Assembly (NCBI RefSeq): GCF_030540765.1
Contig: NZ_JAUOEL010000014.1
Location: 1-48,951 of the forward strand
Reading direction: 5' to 3'
Length of the DNA: 48,951 nt
Source: Flavivirga jejuensis
GTDB lineage: Bacteria; Bacteroidota; Bacteroidia; Flavobacteriales; Flavobacteriaceae
Shown: positions 893-33,023 of the stretch, one piece after another
Position numbering within the stretch: position 1 is the stretch's first letter
How the letters are laid out: the number at the start of each line of letters is the position of its first letter
Translations under genes and position numbers: made by a program
Notes under the pieces: model-generated
The model's database searches: none
Seen by the model: only the letters and a program-made list of their open reading frames with translations
What the model was told of the DNA's origin: nothing

Positions 893-2197
893 TTAAACAA
901 TCGCTTCGCCATAAAGATCGAAATCTTCGGCTTCAATGATTTTCACTGTAGTAAATTCTCCCGTTTTTAAATAGGTTTTAGTAGCGTCAATCAGCACTTC
1001 GTTATCAACATCTGGTGAATCATACTCAGTACGCCCAATAAAATAATTTCCTTCTTTTCTGTCGATAACTACTTTAAAAGTTTTACCTATTTTTTCTTGA
1101 TTGAGTTCCCACGAAATCTGTGATTGTATTTCCATAATCTGGTTAGCACGCTCAATCTTTACCTCTTCTGGCACATCATCTTCCAAATTGTAAGCATGTG
1201 TGTTTTCTTCATGAGAATAAGTAAAACAGCCTAAACGTTCAAAGCGCATATCTGTAACCCATTGTTTCAATGTTTGAAAATCTTCCTCAGTTTCTCCAGG
1301 ATATCCAACAATAAGCGTTGTCCTGATAGTCATATCTGGAACAGCTACTCTAAATTCTTTAAGTAATTTGGTAGTCTTCTCCTTAGTAGTACCACGACGC
1401 ATACTTTTTAATATAGAATCAGAAATATGTTGTAATGGAATATCTAAGTAATTACAAACTTTAGGTTCACGATTCATCACCTCTAATACGTCCATTGGAA
1501 AACCTGTTGGAAACGCATAATGCAATCGAATCCATTCTACACCATCAACTTTTACTAAAGCCTCAAGTAACTCCGCTAAATTTCTTTTTTTGTATAAATC
1601 TAAACCGTAATACGTTAAATCTTGAGCAATAAGTATTAATTCCTTAACGCCATTTGCTGCTAATTTTTCAGCTTCAATAACAATCTCTTCAATAGGTGTA
1701 CTTCTGTGCTTTCCTCTCATAATGGGGATCGCACAAAAACTACAAGGTCTATCGCACCCTTCTGCAATCTTTAAATAGGCATAATTCTTAGGTGTGGTTG
1801 TTAAACGTTCACCTATCAATTCATGTTTATAATCAGCTCCCAAAGCTTTTAATAATCCTGGTAACTCTGTCGTTCCAAAATACGCATCTACATTCGGAAT
1901 CTCTTTTTCCAAGTCTGGTTTATAACGCTCACTAAGGCATCCAGTGACAAAAACCTTATCAACAGCACCAGCTTCTTTTTTTTGCATGAATTCTAAGATC
2001 GTATTCACACTTTCTTCCTTGGCATTATTAATAAATCCGCAAGTATTTATAACTACAATATTGCCTTCTTCTTCATGTACAACATCTTTACCACTAGCCT
2101 TAAGTTGTCCCATTAACACTTCACTATCGTAAACATTTTTACTACAGCCAAGTGTTATTACATTAATCTTATTTTTTTTAAGCGTTTTTGTGCGCAT
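893..2197 (-). CDS. rimO: Ribosomal protein S12 methylthiotransferase RimO
   Basis: The 434-aa radical SAM methylthiotransferase adds a methylthio group to the conserved aspartate of ribosomal protein S12. Three domains are visible in the usual order. The N-terminal MTTase domain has cluster cysteines C18, C53 and C87. The radical SAM core has CDRPCSFC (C148, C152, C155), and a C-terminal TRAM domain covers roughly the last 65 residues. The phrase ITLGCSKNVYDSE favours RimO over MiaB. Length is normal for the family. It is transcribed alone from a TAnnTTTG promoter 60 bases upstream of the ATG, divergently from the beta-lactamase-family gene at 2351. Confidence 0.96.
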   Translation of the reverse strand: MRTKTLKKNKINVITLGCSKNVYDSEVLMGQLKASGKDVVHEEEGNIVVINTCGFINNAKEESVNTILEFMQKKEAGAVDKVFVTGCLSERYKPDLEKEIPNVDAYFGTTELPGLLKALGADYKHELIGERLTTTPKNYAYLKIAEGCDRPCSFCAIPIMRGKHRSTPIEEIVIEAEKLAANGVKELILIAQDLTYYGLDLYKKRNLAELLEALVKVDGVEWIRLHYAFPTGFPMDVLEVMNREPKVCNYLDIPLQHISDSILKSMRRGTTKEKTTKLLKEFRVAVPDMTIRTTLIVGYPGETEEDFQTLKQWVTDMRFERLGCFTYSHEENTHAYNLEDDVPEEVKIERANQIMEIQSQISWELNQEKIGKTFKVVIDRKEGNYFIGRTEYDSPDVDNEVLIDATKTYLKTGEFTTVKIIEAEDFDLYGEAIV

Positions 2198-2256
2198 ACT
2201 ATTTTCCCACTCTAGTGGAGCTCTTATTAATTAATAACGATACTCAATTTAGTGTG

Positions 2257-2264
2257 CAAAGATA
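2257..2264 (-). promoter_or_regulatory. rimO promoter, -7 element
   Basis: Minus-strand TATCTTTG matches the Bacteroidota -7 consensus TAnnTTTG, 60 bases before the rimO start codon. The -33 box is not clear. Confidence 0.55.
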
Positions 2265-2350
2265 CGGAATGATACACGATTTTTAATTTCGGTTTTTTGC
2301 CTTTATTAAACCTTTTATATATTTATCCGTCTTAAACAAAATTATACGTT

Positions 2351-3433
2351 ATGAAAAAGCTTCCCTATTTTTTTCCAATAGCCTTTATTTTATTTTTTAA
2401 TTGTTCTTCAAACGACGATACTTCTAATCAAGACTCTATAAGTGATGCTCTTTATTTTCCTCCGATAAATTCTAATGTTTGGGAAACAAAATCTATTACA
2501 GATTTAAGTTGGAATGAAAATCAACTGCAACCACTTTTAGACTTCTTAGAAAGTCAAAATACTAAAAGTTTTATGATACTACATGAAGGTAAAATTGTAG
2601 TTGAAAGCTATATGAATGACCATGAAGAGACTTCACTTTGGTATTGGGCAAGTGCTGGAAAAACATTAACATCAACCATTTCTGGAATTGCACAAGATGA
2701 AGGTTTATTAGATATAAATGATGAAGTATCAGATTATTTAGGAACCGGATGGACCAGTGCGTCACTCGATAAAGAAAACCTAATTACTTGCAAACATTTA
2801 TTATCTATGACTTCTGGTTTAGATGATAGCTTAGGCAACGATGTATCACCCGAAAATCTTCAATATATAGCTGATGCAGGCACCAGATGGGCTTATCATA
2901 ATGTATATGTGAAAATGCAAGATGTAGTTACTGTAGCTAGTAACCAAACTTGGAATAGCTATTTTAACACGAAACTAAGAGATAAAATTGGTATGTCTGG
3001 ATTTCCTAATGGTTGGCTCGCATCAAACAACGTAAATGTATATTGGAGTGATACAAGAAGTATGGCGCGTTTTGGCTTACTTATTTATGCTAAGGGTAAA
3101 TGGGAAAACACACAAATTATTTCTGAAAGTTTTTTAAATGATGCCACCAACACGTCTCAAGACATCAATAAATCTTATGGCTATTTATGGTGGTTAAACG
3201 GAAAAGACTCCTATCATTTACCTTCCTTACAATTTGAGTTTGATGGTGAATTAATACCAAACGCTCCATCAGACTTGTATGCCGCTTTAGGTAAAAATGA
3301 TCAAAAGATTTATGTCGTTCCTAGTAAAAAATTAGTTATTGTAAGAATGGGTAATGCTGCTAACGATTCAACCTTTGGACTCTCAACTTTTGATAATGAT
3401 TTATGGGAAAAAATAAATGCTTTGACTGATTAA
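2351..3433 (+). CDS. Serine hydrolase of the beta-lactamase (class C/PBP4-like) family, lipoprotein
   Basis: The 360-aa product begins with a lipoprotein signal ending at C18 (FFNC), so it should be exported and lipidated. The beta-lactamase fold (PF00144) is shown by the SxxK nucleophile motif SAGK (S101-K104) and by YHN (Y182, N184) as the second catalytic motif. The family phrase ITCKHLLSMTSGLDD is also present. Members act as esterases, D-aminopeptidases or carboxypeptidases as well as beta-lactamases, so the substrate is unknown and resistance should not be assumed. It stands alone, divergent from rimO, with a MITE-like element directly downstream. Confidence 0.88.
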   Translation: MKKLPYFFPIAFILFFNCSSNDDTSNQDSISDALYFPPINSNVWETKSITDLSWNENQLQPLLDFLESQNTKSFMILHEGKIVVESYMNDHEETSLWYWASAGKTLTSTISGIAQDEGLLDINDEVSDYLGTGWTSASLDKENLITCKHLLSMTSGLDDSLGNDVSPENLQYIADAGTRWAYHNVYVKMQDVVTVASNQTWNSYFNTKLRDKIGMSGFPNGWLASNNVNVYWSDTRSMARFGLLIYAKGKWENTQIISESFLNDATNTSQDINKSYGYLWWLNGKDSYHLPSLQFEFDGELIPNAPSDLYAALGKNDQKIYVVPSKKLVIVRMGNAANDSTFGLSTFDNDLWEKINALTD

Positions 3434-3450
3434 AGCCTGTTTATAAATAA

Positions 3451-3668
3451 AAGAAACTGTCTAAAAAGTAATGAACTTTGTCATTTAGAGACATCTGCTA
3501 AAATTTTAGCAAGCGGGTGAAATGACGTAATTGGGGTGTCATTCAGAAGAAGGTACGACTGAAGAATCTTTAGAGATTAATTATAAAGATTCTTCGACTC
3601 CGACAATTGTCGGAATGCTCTGAATGACCAATCTTTTACATAGAATAACACTTTTTAGACAACTTCTT
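3451..3668. repeat. MITE-like element with 20-base terminal inverted repeats (copy 1)
   Basis: The ends read AAGAAACTGTCTAAAAAGTA on the plus strand and AAGAAGTTGTCTAAAAAGTG on the minus strand. The inner part has no ORF and includes the GACTCCGACAATTGTCGGA palindrome near 3595-3613. The same ends and the adjoining ATGAACTTTGTCAT recur at 44207-44390. It lies between two convergent genes, so it can also act as a two-way terminator. Confidence 0.7.
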
Positions 3669-3688
3669 TAATATTATGACATTAATTA

Positions 3689-6600
3689 CTAATACCGATA
3701 ACGTTTTATTAAAATTTTAGATTTAGCTTTTTTTCCATTAATCTTGGTCTTTAAATAATAAAAACCACATCTTAAATCACTTAACTGTAATTTGATATTA
3801 GATTTACCTGCACTAATTTGGTGATAAGAAGCTTTTAAAAGCTGTCCATAGAAATCGTAAATCTTTAATTCTACATCTGCTTTAATAGTACTATTTAATA
3901 CAACATGAGTGTCATTAACAAAAGGGTTTGAAAATACTTTAAACGTAACTTTGGGCAATGTATTATCATCACTACAAGCCCCTAGATAAGCGCCTCTTGC
4001 TAAAAGAGCTTCGACAGCATACTGGCTTACACATAAAGTTTTCCTTTTATAACAAACTTGCGTTTTAGGTTTTTTATATTTCTGGGATCCCCCATTATAT
4101 TGGTCTGTTCTTGATTTACAAGCAACATCTACTACAGCAACTTCTATAGTCGCTATTTTTGTACAACCATTAGCATCGGTAACTGTAACACTATATGTTG
4201 TTGTCTCTTCAGGACAAACCTCTAGGGTTTCCTGAGTTTCTCCAGTGCTCCATTTATAAGTATATGGTGCCACACCTCCTGTTACGCTTGTAACTTCTAA
4301 TAAGGTACAAGCTTGTGATGCATAACCATAGTACACTATTGTATTACTGGTAGTAGTTACTTCTAATTCAGGTGATTCTAAAATATTAAATGCTTCGGTA
4401 AGGGCGTTCCCTAAAGCATCTGTTATTGTTACTATATGATTTCCACTATCTAAGCCATTAATGCTATTTGAAGAAATAGCACTATCATCCCATTTATAAC
4501 TATAAGGAGCAATACCACCAGAAACTGTTAGTGTTGCCGTACCATCTGACGCTCCAAAGCAAGTGACGTCTGTATACACAAGCTCATTTATATCTAATGA
4601 CTTTAATTGTAATCTGGCAGATACAGGAAAATGATCTGATGCAGTTCTGGTATAATCACTATCATAAAACTCATAATGAACACGCTCAGATTCATTTATA
4701 TAATTATCGTTCAACTCATTAGAAATAGCAATATGATCAATCATATTCTCTCTTGAGACAAAAGATCTGAATCCTGCGGCACTTAAAGCACTGGTTATTA
4801 TATTATAATTAGTAGTATCTGTTACATAATCATCATAACTTGTTAAGGTTGTAGTAACGTCTGCTACAGTAACATCTACATCGTCATTATAATCTCCCAA
4901 CAAAACAATATTTGCCGTTGGGTATTGAACATCCAAACTATCCTTCAATACCTCAACATCATATTTCCTCATATCGTATCTACTCTGAGGATCTGAACTA
5001 CTATTCGCTCTAGCATGCAAAGCAATAAAATTATATTGCTCAGTTTCACCATCAATATTAACATCCGCAGTCATTAAAAATGGTAAACGTCCGCTGGCAT
5101 AAAAACGATCTGTAGTACTTGGGTAATTAACAAGAGCTGAATCATCACCACCATTATACAAAGGGTGAATAGATTCTAACAATACCCTAGTATTTGTAAC
5201 ATTTACGGTAGCCGTATTATAAATAAATCCAACTTTTTGCTTAACTCCAGGATCATTAGGTCTTGATACTGCTGGTGAAAGTATATAATCATATCCTGGA
5301 ATTTCACTTACTAACTGCGCAAACAGCGCATCATCTGAAATCTCTTGAACAGCCAATACATCTGCTTTCAATTTATTAATTACCACCTTAACACTATCTT
5401 TTTGAATAGCATCAGACATCGGATTTCCTGCAGCAGGAGAATTTGCTTCATCACCAAACCATTCAATATTCCATGTTACAACATCTAAAGTTTTCTCCTT
5501 TGGAATCTCTATAGGAAGTGCAGGAGGGATATATGTTCCAGCACAACTAATATCAGCGCTCATTCTAGGAAGCAATTGATACAATTCAAAAAAACGTCCC
5601 ACAACACCTATAATTTCATCACAGCTTTCTGGTTGTTCTAAACCTACTATGGTCTCTACATCATTATCAATTCTTAACTCTCCAGATCCACTCAAATCGG
5701 TTAAAACATAATTGGAGTTTCCAAAAAGAATATCTCCTGGTTTTGGAAAACTAGGGTTTAAAATTTTAACCAATTCTGCTGGGTGATTAGACAATTCTTC
5801 TAATGTGATAACCAATGGTTCTATGGATACATTTGGAAGCCCATGATGCTCTACTTCTGTAACTGGGCTTATTTGGATCTGATCATTAAATACACTTCTT
5901 GTTCCCGTTACAGTTATTGAATCTCCAATTTTAAAAATACCATCCCCATGAACCATTTGATCAAAAATGGCGATCCCACCAGTAGTATCTTGCAAATAGG
6001 CTGATCCTGAAAACTCGTCTGCTACTGTAAGAACTCCTGTTACTTTTACTAACGTTCCTAGCTTATCTAAAGCTCTGGCATTTAGTATTGATACGAGTTC
6101 TATAGGTTCGCTTACACCGCCACCGCCATAAGTCCCAACAGGAAACGTAGTATTTACTGTTGTTCCATCTAAAGCATTAGTACCACTAAACTCCCAATTA
6201 GTTACAACAAATGTACTACCATCAGGACCTGTATCATCTTTTCTATAAGCCCAGCCATCTAGATAGTCCCACGTTTCACCAGAACCATCTGTATTTATAT
6301 CTCCAAAAACATCTATAACGTCTCCATTAAAAAATAATTCGATAGCATCATCGCCATTTATATTAGCAGTACCAGAGGTAAATGTTGGTGCAAATCCAAA
6401 GAAACTTGTGAATCCTGTTTCTTCTGAAGCCACATATATAAAATCGCCTGCGTTTGCAGAACCAGAAAACGCAAACTCTTCTCCATCTGAACCACCCCCA
6501 TTATTTGCAGATCCAAAACTATATATACTCAAATCTGGAATATTTTGTTTCGCATAAAACTCAATAGCTTTTGGCACACCTCCCGAAAGTGGTCCATCTA

Positions 6601-29019: not shown

Positions 29020-29051
29020 CCCGATAGCACGGATTTAAGATACAAGTCCGC
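29020..29051 (+). repeat. Solo REP unit
   Basis: CCCGATAGCACGGATTT followed by AAGATACAAGTCCGC forms a small hairpin. It shares the CCCGATAGC head with the REP ends of the RAYT elements at 29876, 30348 and 30985. Confidence 0.65.
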
Positions 29052-29150
29052 ATATGCAAAGCTGCGAACTTAGCGCTAAAGGTAGCTAGAATAGTATAGC
29101 TCAACTATAATTTATACACATATAATAAAAAGGAAGCTTCGGTTCTATTA
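29051..29150 (+). repeat. 100-base dispersed repeat, copy A
   Basis: Matches 32143-32242 over its full length with scattered differences, including shared segments GCAAAGCTGC, CTAAAGGTAGCT, TATAGCTCAA and TATACACATATA. It follows the solo REP directly. No coding content is apparent. Confidence 0.7.
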
Positions 29151-29210
29151 AAAATCATCTGCTCCCCCCCCTAGTTGATGCGTTAAACTAATTTTAGCAT
29201 ATATAATATA

Positions 29211-29743: not shown

Positions 29744-29875
29744 ACTTCGTTTATCTTATGATAAATATTTGATTCCCACTTCCATATAATAAATCCAAAA
29801 TACCCATTGTTTAAAAATAATGGCTATCTGCCTCCCGATTTTACTATTAAAGATTATCAAGAAAAAACTAAAGAG
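29744..29875 (+). pseudogene. Fragment duplicating the 5' end of the amidohydrolase gene at 32277
   Basis: From AACTTCGTTTA onward this stretch is nearly identical to 32264-32393: the upstream bases plus the first ~39 codons (DSHFHI, NNGYLPPDFTIKDYQEKTKE when read in the right frame). An extra base after the ATG at 29758 (ATGATAAAT against ATGAAAAT) breaks the frame. The copy stops abruptly at the CCCGATAGC end of the RAYT element at 29876. It is a dead partial copy. Confidence 0.88.
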
Positions 29876-29905
29876 CCCGATAGCGCGGATTTGTAATCCG
29901 TGCCC
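29876..29905 (+). repeat. REP unit, left end of RAYT copy 1
   Basis: 30 bases starting CCCGATAGCGCGGATTTG and ending CCGTGCCC, an imperfect palindrome. It directly interrupts the amidohydrolase fragment. Confidence 0.75.
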
Positions 29906-29947
29906 TACTTATCCAATTAATTTTATACTTTGTCGAAAAATTAAAAT

Positions 29948-30346
29948 ATGTCTACAAAATATAAAGCAACAATGACCGACGCTGGTTATTTTATAACCAT
30001 AACTACTGTAGGATGGATAGATATGTTTACCAGACTTAAACAAAAATTTGTTATTACTCAGGCCATTAGGTATTGCCAAAAACATAAAGGTCTTGAAGTT
30101 TATGCCTATTGTATAATGCCTAGTCATATACACGTGCTCTGCAAAACAAAAGAAGGTTTCTTGCTATCAAATATTATGAGGGATTTTTAAAAATTCACCT
30201 CTAAAAAAATTATAGATACCATTATTAATTACCCAGAAAGTAGAAAAGAATGGATGCTTAATTATTTCAGCAAAGCATGTGACCATCTGAAACGAAATCA
30301 ACAATATAAAGTCTGACAAGATGGTTACCATGCAGAAATATGTTCG
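29948..30346 (+). pseudogene. RAYT (REP-associated tyrosine transposase), copy 1, truncated
   Basis: The frame begins MSTKYKATMTDAGYFITITT and has the HUH motif PSHIHVL, typical of Y1 transposases of the REP-associated (IS200-like) type. It is broken by TAA at 30188 (after MRDF) and by TGA at 30314, where copy 2 has TGG. It ends without a stop at 30346, where copy 2's left REP begins one base later. Identity to copy 2 is very high: I count about a dozen differences in ~470 bases. It cannot make a functional enzyme. Confidence 0.85.
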
Positions 30347-30347
30347 A

Positions 30348-31014
30348 CCCGATAGCGTGTATTTGTAATCCGTGCCCTACTTATTCAATTAATTTTATAC
30401 TTTGTAGAAAAATTAAAATATGTCTACAAAATATAAAGCAACAATGACCGACACTGGTTATTTTATAACCATAACTACTGTAGGGTGGATAGATGTGTTT
30501 ACCAGACTTAAACAAAAATTTGTTATTACTCAAGCCATTAGGTATTGCCAAAAACATAAAGGTCTTGAAGTTTATGCCTATTGTATAATGCCTAGTCATA
30601 TACACATGCTCTGCAAAGCAAAAGAAGGTTTCTTGCTATCAAATATTATGAGGGATTTTTAAAAATTCACCTCTAAAAAAATTATAGATACCATTATTAA
30701 TTACCCAGAAAGTAGAAAAGAATGGATGCTTAATTATTTCAGCAAAGCATGTGACCATCTGAAACGAAATCAACAATATAAAGTCTGGCAAGATGGTTAC
30801 CATGCAGAAATATGTTCGTCAAATAAATTTATAAAGCAGAAATTAGATTATATTCATAACAATCCTGTGAATGACAAAATTGTTTCTAATCCGGAAGATT
30901 ATGTTTTTAGTTCGGCAAGAAATTATGCTAGTTTAGATAGCGAACTTGATATTGTCATATTACATATTTTTTGAGTTTAAAAATGGGCACGGATTGCAAA
31001 TCCGCGCTATCGGG
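30348..31014 (+). mobile_element. RAYT/REP element, copy 2 (complete ends)
   Basis: The element has 30-base inverted ends: CCCGATAGCGTG at 30348-30377 and, on the other strand, CCCGATAGCGCG at 30985-31014. Each end is itself palindromic, as in REP pairs. It contains one RAYT reading frame split by a stop codon. Its left end abuts the truncated copy 1, which suggests insertion into, or rearrangement with, the older copy. Confidence 0.75.
30420..30974 (+). pseudogene. RAYT (REP-associated tyrosine transposase), copy 2, split by one in-frame TAA
   Basis: The 184-codon frame is intact except for TAA at 30660-30662. The first part (80 aa) has the HUH motif PSHIHML. After the stop the same frame continues KFTSKKIIDTI to LDYIHNNPVNDK, whose tyrosine is the likely nucleophile, and ends HIF. 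The usual family sequence here is RDFKKFTS, so the stop looks like AAA changed to TAA. The same change is in copy 1. An ATG at 30726 could start the second half. It is either a pseudogene, two polypeptides, or a readthrough gene. Confidence 0.8.
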
Positions 31015-31044
31015 TTAACTGAAGAAAACTATGTATAACAATGA

Positions 31045-31116: not shown

Positions 31117-31344
31117 CTATAATTCAAAATCAAATAATTCTTTGGGATGGATTTCTAAGCCTTCAGCTAAAGACAAGATTGTTTTCATAGAAGCCCCATG
31201 CTCTCCTTTTAGCACACGATAAACTTGCTTAGGTTCTATTTTACCTATTGAAGCAACTGTCATAACATCTTTATTATACTTTTCAAGTAATAATTTCAGA
31301 TGCTCTCCAAACGCTTTGTAATATGCTTTGTTGGTTTTCTTCAC
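31117..31344 (-). CDS. XRE-family helix-turn-helix regulator
   Basis: The 75-aa single-domain Cro/CI-type HTH protein has the recognition region VMTVASIGKIEPKQVYRVLKGEHGASMKTILSLAEGLEI, and a terminal DFEL. The start is GTG at 31344, inside the inverted repeat TTCACTTTGTGAA (31340-31352). Upstream, a perfect palindrome at 31378-31393 is a likely operator, so autoregulation is expected. It lies divergently from the structured RNA and its downstream 110-aa gene and may control both (inference). Confidence 0.85.
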   Translation of the reverse strand: MKKTNKAYYKAFGEHLKLLLEKYNKDVMTVASIGKIEPKQVYRVLKGEHGASMKTILSLAEGLEIHPKELFDFEL

Positions 31345-31377
31345 TTTGTGAAGTTGTGGTTTTTTTCAAAATAATAA

Positions 31378-31393
31378 TTGTCAAATTTGACAA
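31378..31393. promoter_or_regulatory. Perfect palindromic operator
   Basis: TTGTCAAATTTGACAA, 16 bases with full dyad symmetry. It is 34 bases upstream of the XRE start and about 60 bases upstream of the opposite-strand promoter at 31455. The spacing fits a dimeric HTH repressor site. Confidence 0.6.
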
Positions 31394-31454
31394 TATGATA
31401 ATTATTTTTATATTTGTTTTTTAATCAGTTCTATTAGTATTGAACTGTAATTTT

Positions 31455-31462
31455 TATATTTG
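31455..31462 (+). promoter_or_regulatory. Promoter of the structured RNA, -7 element
   Basis: TATATTTG matches the Bacteroidota consensus TAnnTTTG exactly. Initiation is expected near 31469. A TTG at 31440-31442 is a possible but closely spaced -33 box. Confidence 0.6.
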
Positions 31463-31468
31463 CGATTC

Positions 31469-31640
31469 TTCGTATAGAAAATATTTGAAGTCATCGCTTT
31501 GAATCTCGTATCAGAAAACTAGTAATTTTTAAGCAACGAGAAGATAAGTAAGATGCTCACGTCTTTAGGCGTGGGCTCGCTTATTGTTGCTCGGTATACT
31601 AGTGCCTCTGATACGATAAGTTGAGTTCCACGCCTTTTTT
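31469..31640 (+). ncRNA. Highly structured RNA with nested hairpin and terminator (candidate regulator/attenuator)
   Basis: Five helices nest around one loop. From outside in they are: CGTATCAGA (31507) with TCTGATACG (31607); ACTAGTA (31518) with TACTAGT (31597); GCAAC (31533) with GTTGC (31586); ATAAG (31544) with CTTAT (31580); and GCTCACG (31555) with CGTGGGC (31570). The apical loop is TCTTTAGG. Alternatively GGCGTGG (31568-31574) can pair with CCACGCC (31628-31634), which is followed by six T residues. That makes a terminator stem that would break the apical helix. A consensus promoter lies just upstream and a small ORF begins at 31710. I cannot assign it to a known RNA family. Confidence 0.7.
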
Positions 31641-31709
31641 GTTTCCACACATTACAGGCTTTAACGAGTGTTTATCTCACTAATAAAGAAAGAAGTAAAA
31701 TCTAATTCT

Positions 31710-32042
31710 ATGAAAAAAACAGAAGCCTATACATCCCCAGACCACCACCTTATAATGCCACATTACGCTACTATAGCCACATTAATTGCATTACTAGGTA
31801 TATCTGGACTAAACAATGCCGTTATAAAACATTGCAAAACAGGATTAAAGGTTATTGCTATTATTTATAATAATCCAGACTGCAACTCCAGAAAAAATAT
31901 TTTATCAAGAAAAAAATTTGACGCGTTCTTTGCTTTGTTTCCTTCCACTTATTTTAACAATAGAGAATTAATTTCATCCAAAACAGTTCTTGAAAATATA
32001 GAAATATGTATTAAAACAAATAACGTAGCAAATGCTGCTTAG
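31710..32042 (+). CDS. Unrecognised 110-aa protein downstream of the structured RNA
   Basis: The frame starts MKKTEAYTSPDHHLIMPHYA and has a hydrophobic stretch TIATLIALLGISGL (about 18-31), possibly a membrane helix. A basic, cysteine-containing middle (KHCKTGLK, NNPDCNSRKN) and a polar tail follow. I chose ATG 31710 over 31668, which adds 14 codons lacking any clear signal; an AAGAAAGAAG stretch lies upstream. No family is recognised. It follows the RNA terminator at 31640, so its expression may depend on readthrough or antitermination. It could also be spurious. Confidence 0.45.
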   Translation: MKKTEAYTSPDHHLIMPHYATIATLIALLGISGLNNAVIKHCKTGLKVIAIIYNNPDCNSRKNILSRKKFDAFFALFPSTYFNNRELISSKTVLENIEICIKTNNVANAA

Positions 32043-32111: not shown

Positions 32112-32149
32112 GCACATGCGTTAGAATAATATAATTACAACGCATGTGC
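32112..32149. repeat. Perfect 11-base inverted repeat upstream of the amidohydrolase gene
   Basis: GCACATGCGTT (32112-32122) and AACGCATGTGC (32139-32149) around a 16-base A/T loop. The outer bases continue imperfectly (TTTGCAAAGT against CTTTGCAGC). It overlaps the start of repeat copy B. It may be a REP-like unit or a terminator without a T run. Confidence 0.5.
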
Positions 32150-32242
32150 AAAGCTGCAAACTTAGCACTAAAGGTAGCTGGAACGGTATAGCTCAATTAA
32201 AAAATATACACATATAGTAAAAAAGCAGCTTCGACCCTATTA
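32143..32242 (+). repeat. 100-base dispersed repeat, copy B
   Basis: Counterpart of 29051-29150. It ends 35 bases before the amidohydrolase start, so it forms the leader or promoter region of that gene. The partial amidohydrolase copy at 29744 also lies downstream of copy A, but with the lipoprotein gene in between. Confidence 0.7.
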
Positions 32243-32276
32243 ATTATCTTTAATAGATCTTAACTTCGTTTAACTT

Positions 32277-33023
32277 ATGAAAATATTTGATTCCCACTTC
32301 CATATAATAAACCCAAAATACCCATTGTTTAAAAATAATGGCTATCTGCCTCCCGATTTTACTATTAAGGATTATCAAGAAAAAACTAAAGAGATCGAAA
32401 TTATTGGAGGCGCTATTGTTTCTGGTTCATTTCAAAAATTTCATCAAGAATATTTAATAGACGCTCTTAGCAAACTAGGAAATAATTATTTTGGAGTGGC
32501 AAATATCCCATTAAAAATGGAAGAAAAAGATCTGGACAGATTAAACAGATCAAATATAGTTGCTGTTAGATTTAATCTTAAACGTGGTGGTTCTGAAGGT
32601 ATTGATAATTTAATCAAACTATCGAACCTTCTTTTCGACAAATATAACTGGCATACAGAATTATACGTTGATAGTAAAGACTTAAAAGAGCTGAAGCCAA
32701 TACTAATGGAAATTCCACAGTTTTCTATCGACCACCTCGGATTATCAAAAAGTGGCATAAAGGAATTATATTATTGGGCGGAAAGAGGAGTAAAAATTAA
32801 GGCTACTGGGTTTGGGAGAATTGATTTTGACCCTATTCCTATTATGAAAAAAATATACAGCATTAATCCAAGATCTTTAATGTTTGGAACAGACCTCCCC
32901 TCTACAAGAGCGCAAATTCCATTTACAATGAAAGATGTAGAACTTATAAAAAATAACTTTACAGAACCTGAACAACAAAACCTATTCTATAAGAATTCTC
33001 TAGAGTGGTACATAAAAAACTAA
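32277..33023 (+). CDS. Amidohydrolase-family TIM-barrel metal-dependent hydrolase
   Basis: The 248-aa product has metal-binding HxH in FDSHFHI (H7, H9), a further histidine in FSIDHLGLS and the late aspartate in MFGTDLPST. These are features of the amidohydrolase 2 group (PF04909; uronate/lactonase/decarboxylase-like). The length is slightly short for the group, and the substrate is unknown. A frameshifted copy of its first ~39 codons lies 2.5 kb upstream at 29758-29875. No operon partner is evident. Confidence 0.85.
   Translation: MKIFDSHFHIINPKYPLFKNNGYLPPDFTIKDYQEKTKEIEIIGGAIVSGSFQKFHQEYLIDALSKLGNNYFGVANIPLKMEEKDLDRLNRSNIVAVRFNLKRGGSEGIDNLIKLSNLLFDKYNWHTELYVDSKDLKELKPILMEIPQFSIDHLGLSKSGIKELYYWAERGVKIKATGFGRIDFDPIPIMKKIYSINPRSLMFGTDLPSTRAQIPFTMKDVELIKNNFTEPEQQNLFYKNSLEWYIKN

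Follow-up and report, generated by a model that had tools for sequence, protein, structure and literature searches.

The window, a stretch of 48,951 nucleotides from Flavivirga jejuensis, carries at 31462-31640 an RNA element that can take up two competing folds, because one of its strands (M) is complementary to two similar strands, F upstream and T downstream. On balance, the element is probably a cis-acting leader RNA that works as a strand-exchange transcription attenuator and that dCas12f-sigma can bypass in relatives. The prospects are about even for a two-level address, in which the RNA is the strand-exchange attenuator and the M DNA serves permanently as a target for RNA-guided transcription. 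Both attenuation and dCas12f-sigma are established kinds of system; what appears to be new is the RNA family, with the double role proposed for it.

Two exclusive folds of the element

The element and its surroundings comprise the following features (window coordinates, strand, description and basis).

31117-31344, minus strand: divergent XRE/Cro-C1-like HTH gene, 75 aa; open reading frame with Pfam HTH matches below cut-off
31377-31394, no strand: perfect 18-bp palindrome ATTGTCAAATTTGACAAT, candidate operator; sequence
31455-31462, plus strand: promoter -7-like element TATATTTG; sequence
31462-31497, plus strand: 5' hairpin GCGATTCTTC...GAAGTCATCGC; helix 1 of the model
31505-31615, plus strand: nested long stem, state 1 (proposed read-through); fold energy and covariation
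31543-31563, plus strand: strand F, GATAAGTAAGATGCTCACGTC, upstream partner of M; complementarity and partner shuffles
31568-31584, plus strand: strand M, GGCGTGGGCTCGCTTAT, common to both helices; matched by dCas12f guides of relatives
31593-31606, plus strand: inner element GGTATACTAGTGCC; fold of 31565-31642
31615-31634, plus strand: strand T, GATAAGTTGAGTTCCACGCC, downstream partner of M; complementarity and partner shuffles
31635-31640, plus strand: six T directly after strand T, a terminator-like tail; sequence
31710-32042, plus strand: small gene, 110 aa; open reading frame

TAnnTTTG is the -7 element of Bacteroidota promoters, and a promoter-like sequence of this type, claimed as a promoter in an earlier note on this DNA, is present at 31455-31462, with its TTTG constant in the ten copies of the own genome. 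The nested stem of about 110 bases described in the same note was likewise recovered: the segment 31505-31615 has a folding energy of -45 kcal/mol (z -6.35, equalled by 0/200 shuffles), covaries in the aligned copies and is kept when the whole of 31469-31640 (172 nt) is folded (-52.1 kcal/mol, z -4.38, 0/200). On its own, 31565-31642 folds into a single long hairpin ending at the six T (-34.8 kcal/mol, z -6.21, 0/200). The double pairing pointed out earlier for GGCGTGG is real and longer than noted, since the 17-nt strand M is complementary to F and to T. In state 1, the TACTAGT of GGTATACTAGTGCC pairs with ACTAGTA (31518-31524), and in state 2, as seen in the fold of 31565-31642, the ends of GGTATACTAGTGCC can pair together; the dinucleotides flanking this inner element are complementary in 89 of the 102 aligned copies, mostly as identical TA/TA.

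Conservation of both pairings

Both of the helices named earlier, apical and terminator, are conserved. Partner-shuffle and fold tests were run on 99 of the 102 alignment rows, three being left out (two partial, one weak). The mean native value for F:M was -16.59 against -13.38 with shuffled partners (sd 0.24), and that for M:T was -16.10 against -12.47 (sd 0.23); none of the 5000 shuffles was as good in either case, a significance that ignores kinship, as partner shuffles leave shared ancestry in. The control pairing F:T was much weaker (-8.69 against -8.25, 67/5000), and shorter F, M and T strands gave the same outcome. Distant copies such as L086 keep both pairings with different letters. 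All 99 copies have z below -3 for the nested fold, and 85 have z below -2 for the terminator fold. The 3' tail held at least five T in 73 copies and at least four in 85, so that by the five-T test the run is absent or short in 26.

Column-wise covariation was assessed separately. In the alignment of 102 rows, which was fitted to the nested structure, 94.0% of cells pair, against 74.3% after shuffling and at most 38.6% when slid, and two-sided changes occur at all 44 model pairs, including all five pairs of helix 1 (85.3% of cells paired). For the M:T columns in 36 closer copies, 98.2% of cells are paired, against 97.3% shuffled and at most 68.2% slid, and five cells are changed on both sides, against 1.2 shuffled. 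The two M:T pairs with a two-sided change give weaker support, such a number being reached by 78 of 500 shuffles; F:M has one pair of this kind in the same copies.

Distribution of the RNA family

The genome from which the window comes holds ten full-length copies and one weak partial match. By DNA similarity, a match was obtained in 22 of 99 related genomes, the own genome included (the match in G085 covers just 28 bases). A covariance-model search, a check put forward in the earlier note for flavobacterial genomes and run here over the phylum, found homologues whose base pairs covary: the model, built from the 36 closer copies, located the element in 32 of 296 phylum-wide genomes and 17 of 140 genera, again with the own genome counted. 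An exact pattern gave at least 119 stretches in named genomes; among the matches listed, 78 of 80 titles are Bacteroidota (Flavobacterium, Chryseobacterium, Pedobacter, Mucilaginibacter, Bacteroides, Parabacteroides and others) and the other two, with the labels Lentisphaerae and Pelotomaculum, belong to metagenome bins that may contain mis-binned sequence. The pattern also occurs in four viral contigs, and blastn against plasmid and phage records yielded no match to the element.

A scan of the window with Rfam 15 at gathering scores returned only a tRNA elsewhere and nothing for the element, and permissive scans of the element region returned weak sub-threshold matches only. The flavo-1 RNA, singled out in the earlier note, was absent from the gathering scan of the window and from the permissive scans of the element region; in PMC9723704, it is described as a motif widespread in Flavobacteriaceae and lying in 5' regions, as the element does. 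The window copy aligns end to end with the Prevotella-2 RNA (RF03043), with AAGUUGAGU common to both, at 20.9 bits versus a gathering score of 72.1 (E 0.87); relatedness to Prevotella-2 is unsupported, the match being sub-threshold and not listed for 12 other loci scanned whole. A search of open-access articles other than preprints found no description of the RNA family, nor any paper on dCas12f-sigma. The family is apparently undescribed and spread over Bacteroidota, and it adds to that phylum a widespread RNA standing ahead of genes for outer-membrane nutrient receptors and sigma factors.

Gene neighbourhood

Gene layout was compared in a sample of 123 loci (119 genomic and four viral), with protein clusters named by reading and with neighbour counts that are lower bounds, because the loci are cut at different distances. 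An HTH protein lies on the opposite strand just upstream of the RNA in at least 60 of these loci, and downstream of it are SusC-type receptors (at least 48), SusD proteins (at least 25) and sigma-70-like proteins (at least 12), a Cas12f-like protein following at least five of the last. For the copy at locus L108, Pfam matches bear out the downstream receptor and SusD protein. Of the 97 loci with room for a downstream open reading frame of 100 aa or more, 85 have the nearest one on the strand of the RNA, 11 have it on the opposite strand and one has none; in some loci the same-strand gene starts about 15-50 bases after the RNA. Upstream, the nearest frame (minimum 60 aa) runs divergently in 66 of 96 loci. 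The common order is a divergent XRE-type gene, the RNA and then same-strand receptor, sigma or secreted-protein genes, and this conserved layout contains no transposase. More distant genomes have other kinds of downstream gene, and their HTH gene is often missing. Of the conserved downstream gene looked for in the earlier note, the arrangement was found to be conserved, but with several kinds of gene rather than one.

At the window copy, the divergent repressor with a palindromic operator proposed earlier is represented by the 75-aa HTH-like gene and the 18-bp palindrome; the HTH assignment is weak (19.5 bits against PF13443, a Cro/C1-type HTH family, below the cut-off of 22), and the palindrome is a putative operator. 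Divergent HTH genes occupy the same place at other copies. The small gene at 31710-32042, already described as unrecognised, was not matched by anything in Pfam, PADLOC or PHROGs within the limits applied, and its single NCBIfam match was insignificant (E 0.12). A relative of it (110-138 aa) follows seven of the nine other copies in the own genome, and an ECF sigma gene also follows seven of the nine; these sigma genes include two short ones (91 aa), one that starts after an in-frame stop and one about 2 kb off. At the window copy, the small gene is present and a sigma gene is not. A comparison of the small protein with the protein of about 175 aa encoded behind the RNA in Chryseobacterium gave no support for homology (hhalign probability 0.8).

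Guide RNAs of dCas12f-sigma in relatives

In relatives, a sigma gene and a Cas12f-like gene lie behind the RNA at loci L101, L102, L112, L166, L176, L208, L209, L240 and L241. The Cas12f-like family matches PDB 9n9c, 'Nuclease-deactivated Cas12f' (E 9.9e-198), and is presumed nuclease-dead from this match; the sigma protein of L101 matches chain C, 'RpoE', of PDB 9n9q (E 3.9e-84). Behind the Cas12f-like gene lies a conserved scaffold, which carries a guide except at L112, where it seems to be cut short. The likeness to dCas12f-sigmaE (PDB 9n9c, 9n9m, 9n9o and 9n9q) consists in the RNA preceding the matching proteins and in guides that match M; the difference is that the element would serve as target and leader instead of as guide RNA.

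Among 12 guides from eight loci, seven fit M of their own element so well that at most 17 of 5000 shuffles equal or exceed them, and five do not. When the best guide per locus was taken (22 loci tried, 19 scored, three elements being missed by the pattern), the match fell at M in all 19 scored loci and beat all but at most 52 of 2000 shuffles in 18 of them; the best guide of L241 was no better than shuffles (452/2000). Guides match the element of their own locus at 13.58 of 17 positions, against 13.09 when swapped (sd 0.16, 12/5000). This Cas12f reportedly prefers a G before its target; before the 19 matched sites the base is G in seven, C in nine and A in three.

A search for the scaffold only, in 395 genomes of the order, found it in 22 genomes. 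Loci from 19 of these gave 33 distinct scaffolds, 23 of them with an M-like guide by a motif that was picked after earlier guides had been seen and was applied without a shuffle control. The element is present in all 22 scaffold-found genomes; this co-occurrence is weak evidence, because 31 of 40 scaffold-less controls of one family carry the element too. In nine genomes, sites within one mismatch of GCGTGGGCTCNCTTAT fall in elements, half elements or guides. It was also considered whether the M-like guide is a mere constant part of the scaffold. This seems improbable, given that other guides are found on tandem scaffolds, that guides fit the element of their own locus better than a swapped one, and that the guide and element of L166 share the unusual GTGTGGG. 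Tandem guide RNAs, one of three being M-like, occur at L298, L299 and L300 (G695, G470 and G663); among their other guides, forms such as TGAGCGGTTTTC or GGGGCGGTTTTC recur, which may be directed at a second family of targets.

Most of the searched genomes with the element lack this scaffold. A set of 49 element-bearing genomes included 45 without a convincing scaffold (44 with no match, and G005 with a two-mismatch match devoid of scaffold features). Within the own genome, there was no dCas12f protein match (in a search run without a positive control), no scaffold within two mismatches and no extra M-like site within one mismatch. The dCas12f-sigmaE system is thus absent there as far as searched, and the RNA must therefore act in that genome without dCas12f.

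Proposed mechanism and alternatives

The attenuator reading is favoured because two exclusive folds, one of them with a T run, precede a same-strand gene. In this respect, the element resembles terminator/anti-terminator leaders (attenuators and riboswitch-type expression platforms), which also have a strand shared by exclusive helices and a second helix beside a T run ahead of a same-strand gene; it differs from them in matching no Rfam family at gathering score, in its very long upstream competitor stem and in a shared strand that guide RNAs match in relatives. The attenuator- or riboswitch-like layout recognised in the earlier note is thereby borne out in its exclusive helices, T run and same-strand gene, while switching and regulation are, as then, what we infer from them; the earlier interpretation of the element as a switch-type regulator is supported.

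Pairing of M with F in the nested stem would be the read-through state, and pairing of M with T beside the T run the terminator. Read-through is the likely default, since the nested stem is the stabler fold and its strands have all been transcribed by the time T is made. The full-length energy favours the nested fold, so termination would need a trigger; capture of the near-invariant 5' strand GAAAACUGGUAAUUUU would free M and bring about termination. Control of initiation would fall to the divergent XRE-type repressor, and the attenuator would determine how much transcription reaches the genes behind, namely those for SusC/SusD receptors, ECF sigma factors and secreted proteins, or, at the window copy, for the small protein of 110 aa.

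In relatives with sigma and nuclease-dead Cas12f, the M-like guide would direct the complex to the M DNA, and the bound complex would start transcription downstream of M. The start is said to lie about 46 bases downstream of the site bound by dCas12f-sigma, which, counted from M, would fall near the start of T. A transcript started past M lacks M and would therefore form no terminator, escaping the switch. If this is true, a dCas12f-sigma operon behind an element would activate both itself and other element-bearing receptor loci, and an RNA-guided regulon would have been built on a repeated RNA switch. Transcription by dCas12f-sigma would thereby gain a concrete, repeated natural target, and with it a regulon, and a rationale for its existence, that can both be tested.

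Other readings account for part of these observations. A small RNA of some 170 nt, acting in trans and ending with the T run, the downstream genes having their own promoters, would agree with the promoter-like element, the terminator-like end and the many copies per genome; we regard it as unlikely, as a same-strand gene follows in 85 of 97 loci, at times at the short distances given above, and a stable small RNA has no need of mutually exclusive M:T and F:M pairings. A metabolite riboswitch, with the near-invariant internal strands as aptamer, is a decidedly doubtful proposition. Helix 6 of the model, with 99.3% pairing, hardly varies in sequence, beyond what pairing by itself would require, and receptor genes are often downstream; against this, one ligand hardly explains such widely differing downstream genes, and an Rfam riboswitch match is absent.

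The occurrence of M-like guides in several lineages would also be expected of a site that matters at the DNA level only, as a landing site for dCas12f-sigma with the RNA fold as a by-product. This is very improbable in view of the covariation of F and T with M and of the 45 in 49 element-bearing genomes without a convincing scaffold. Nor does the position of the element ahead of sigma-dCas12f operons make its RNA the guide RNA of dCas12f, a reading to which we attach next to no probability and which is rejected: a different conserved scaffold, with guides, sits behind dCas12f and is missing from most of the element-bearing genomes searched. That the element is a mobile-element end or MITE is hardly credible either. 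The ten dispersed copies in the own genome and an IS110-family element inside some copies of relatives speak for it; its fixed position between regulator and gene and the compensatory changes across the phylum speak against it, and the IS110 element is an insertion into the RNA element.

Insertions, recombination and nearby features

At L048 (G007:C8, about 3005-4325), an IS110-family element (PF02371, PF01548) is situated within the RNA's apical loop. In G011, five half copies (L049, L050, L052, L053 and L057) end in the same kind of IS110 element, and three of them share the left junction GCTCACGTA/TTCTATG; the apical loop looks like a recurrent IS110 target. At L051 (G001, 2100-3300), a left half element is followed by an HTH coding sequence and then by a complete element, as if regulator and element had recombined at the apex. 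The copies at L137, L164, L184 and L246 stand behind paired HTH genes resembling those of conjugative transposons, and L137 also has an rteR sRNA match. Near another element copy of the own genome (L014, contig C1, about 4719-6001) is an open reading frame cut by the end of the stretch, which we take to be Cas9-like from its N-terminal motif.

In the window itself, 29876-31015 holds a gene named by reading as RAYT/Y1-transposase-like, which is broken and partly duplicated and has REP-like inverted repeats. Direct repeats flank the element region, 29049-29156 with 32141-32248 (83%) and 29763-29880 with 32281-32398 (97%), the latter pair copying the start of the gene at 32277, a sign of what may be an old duplication.
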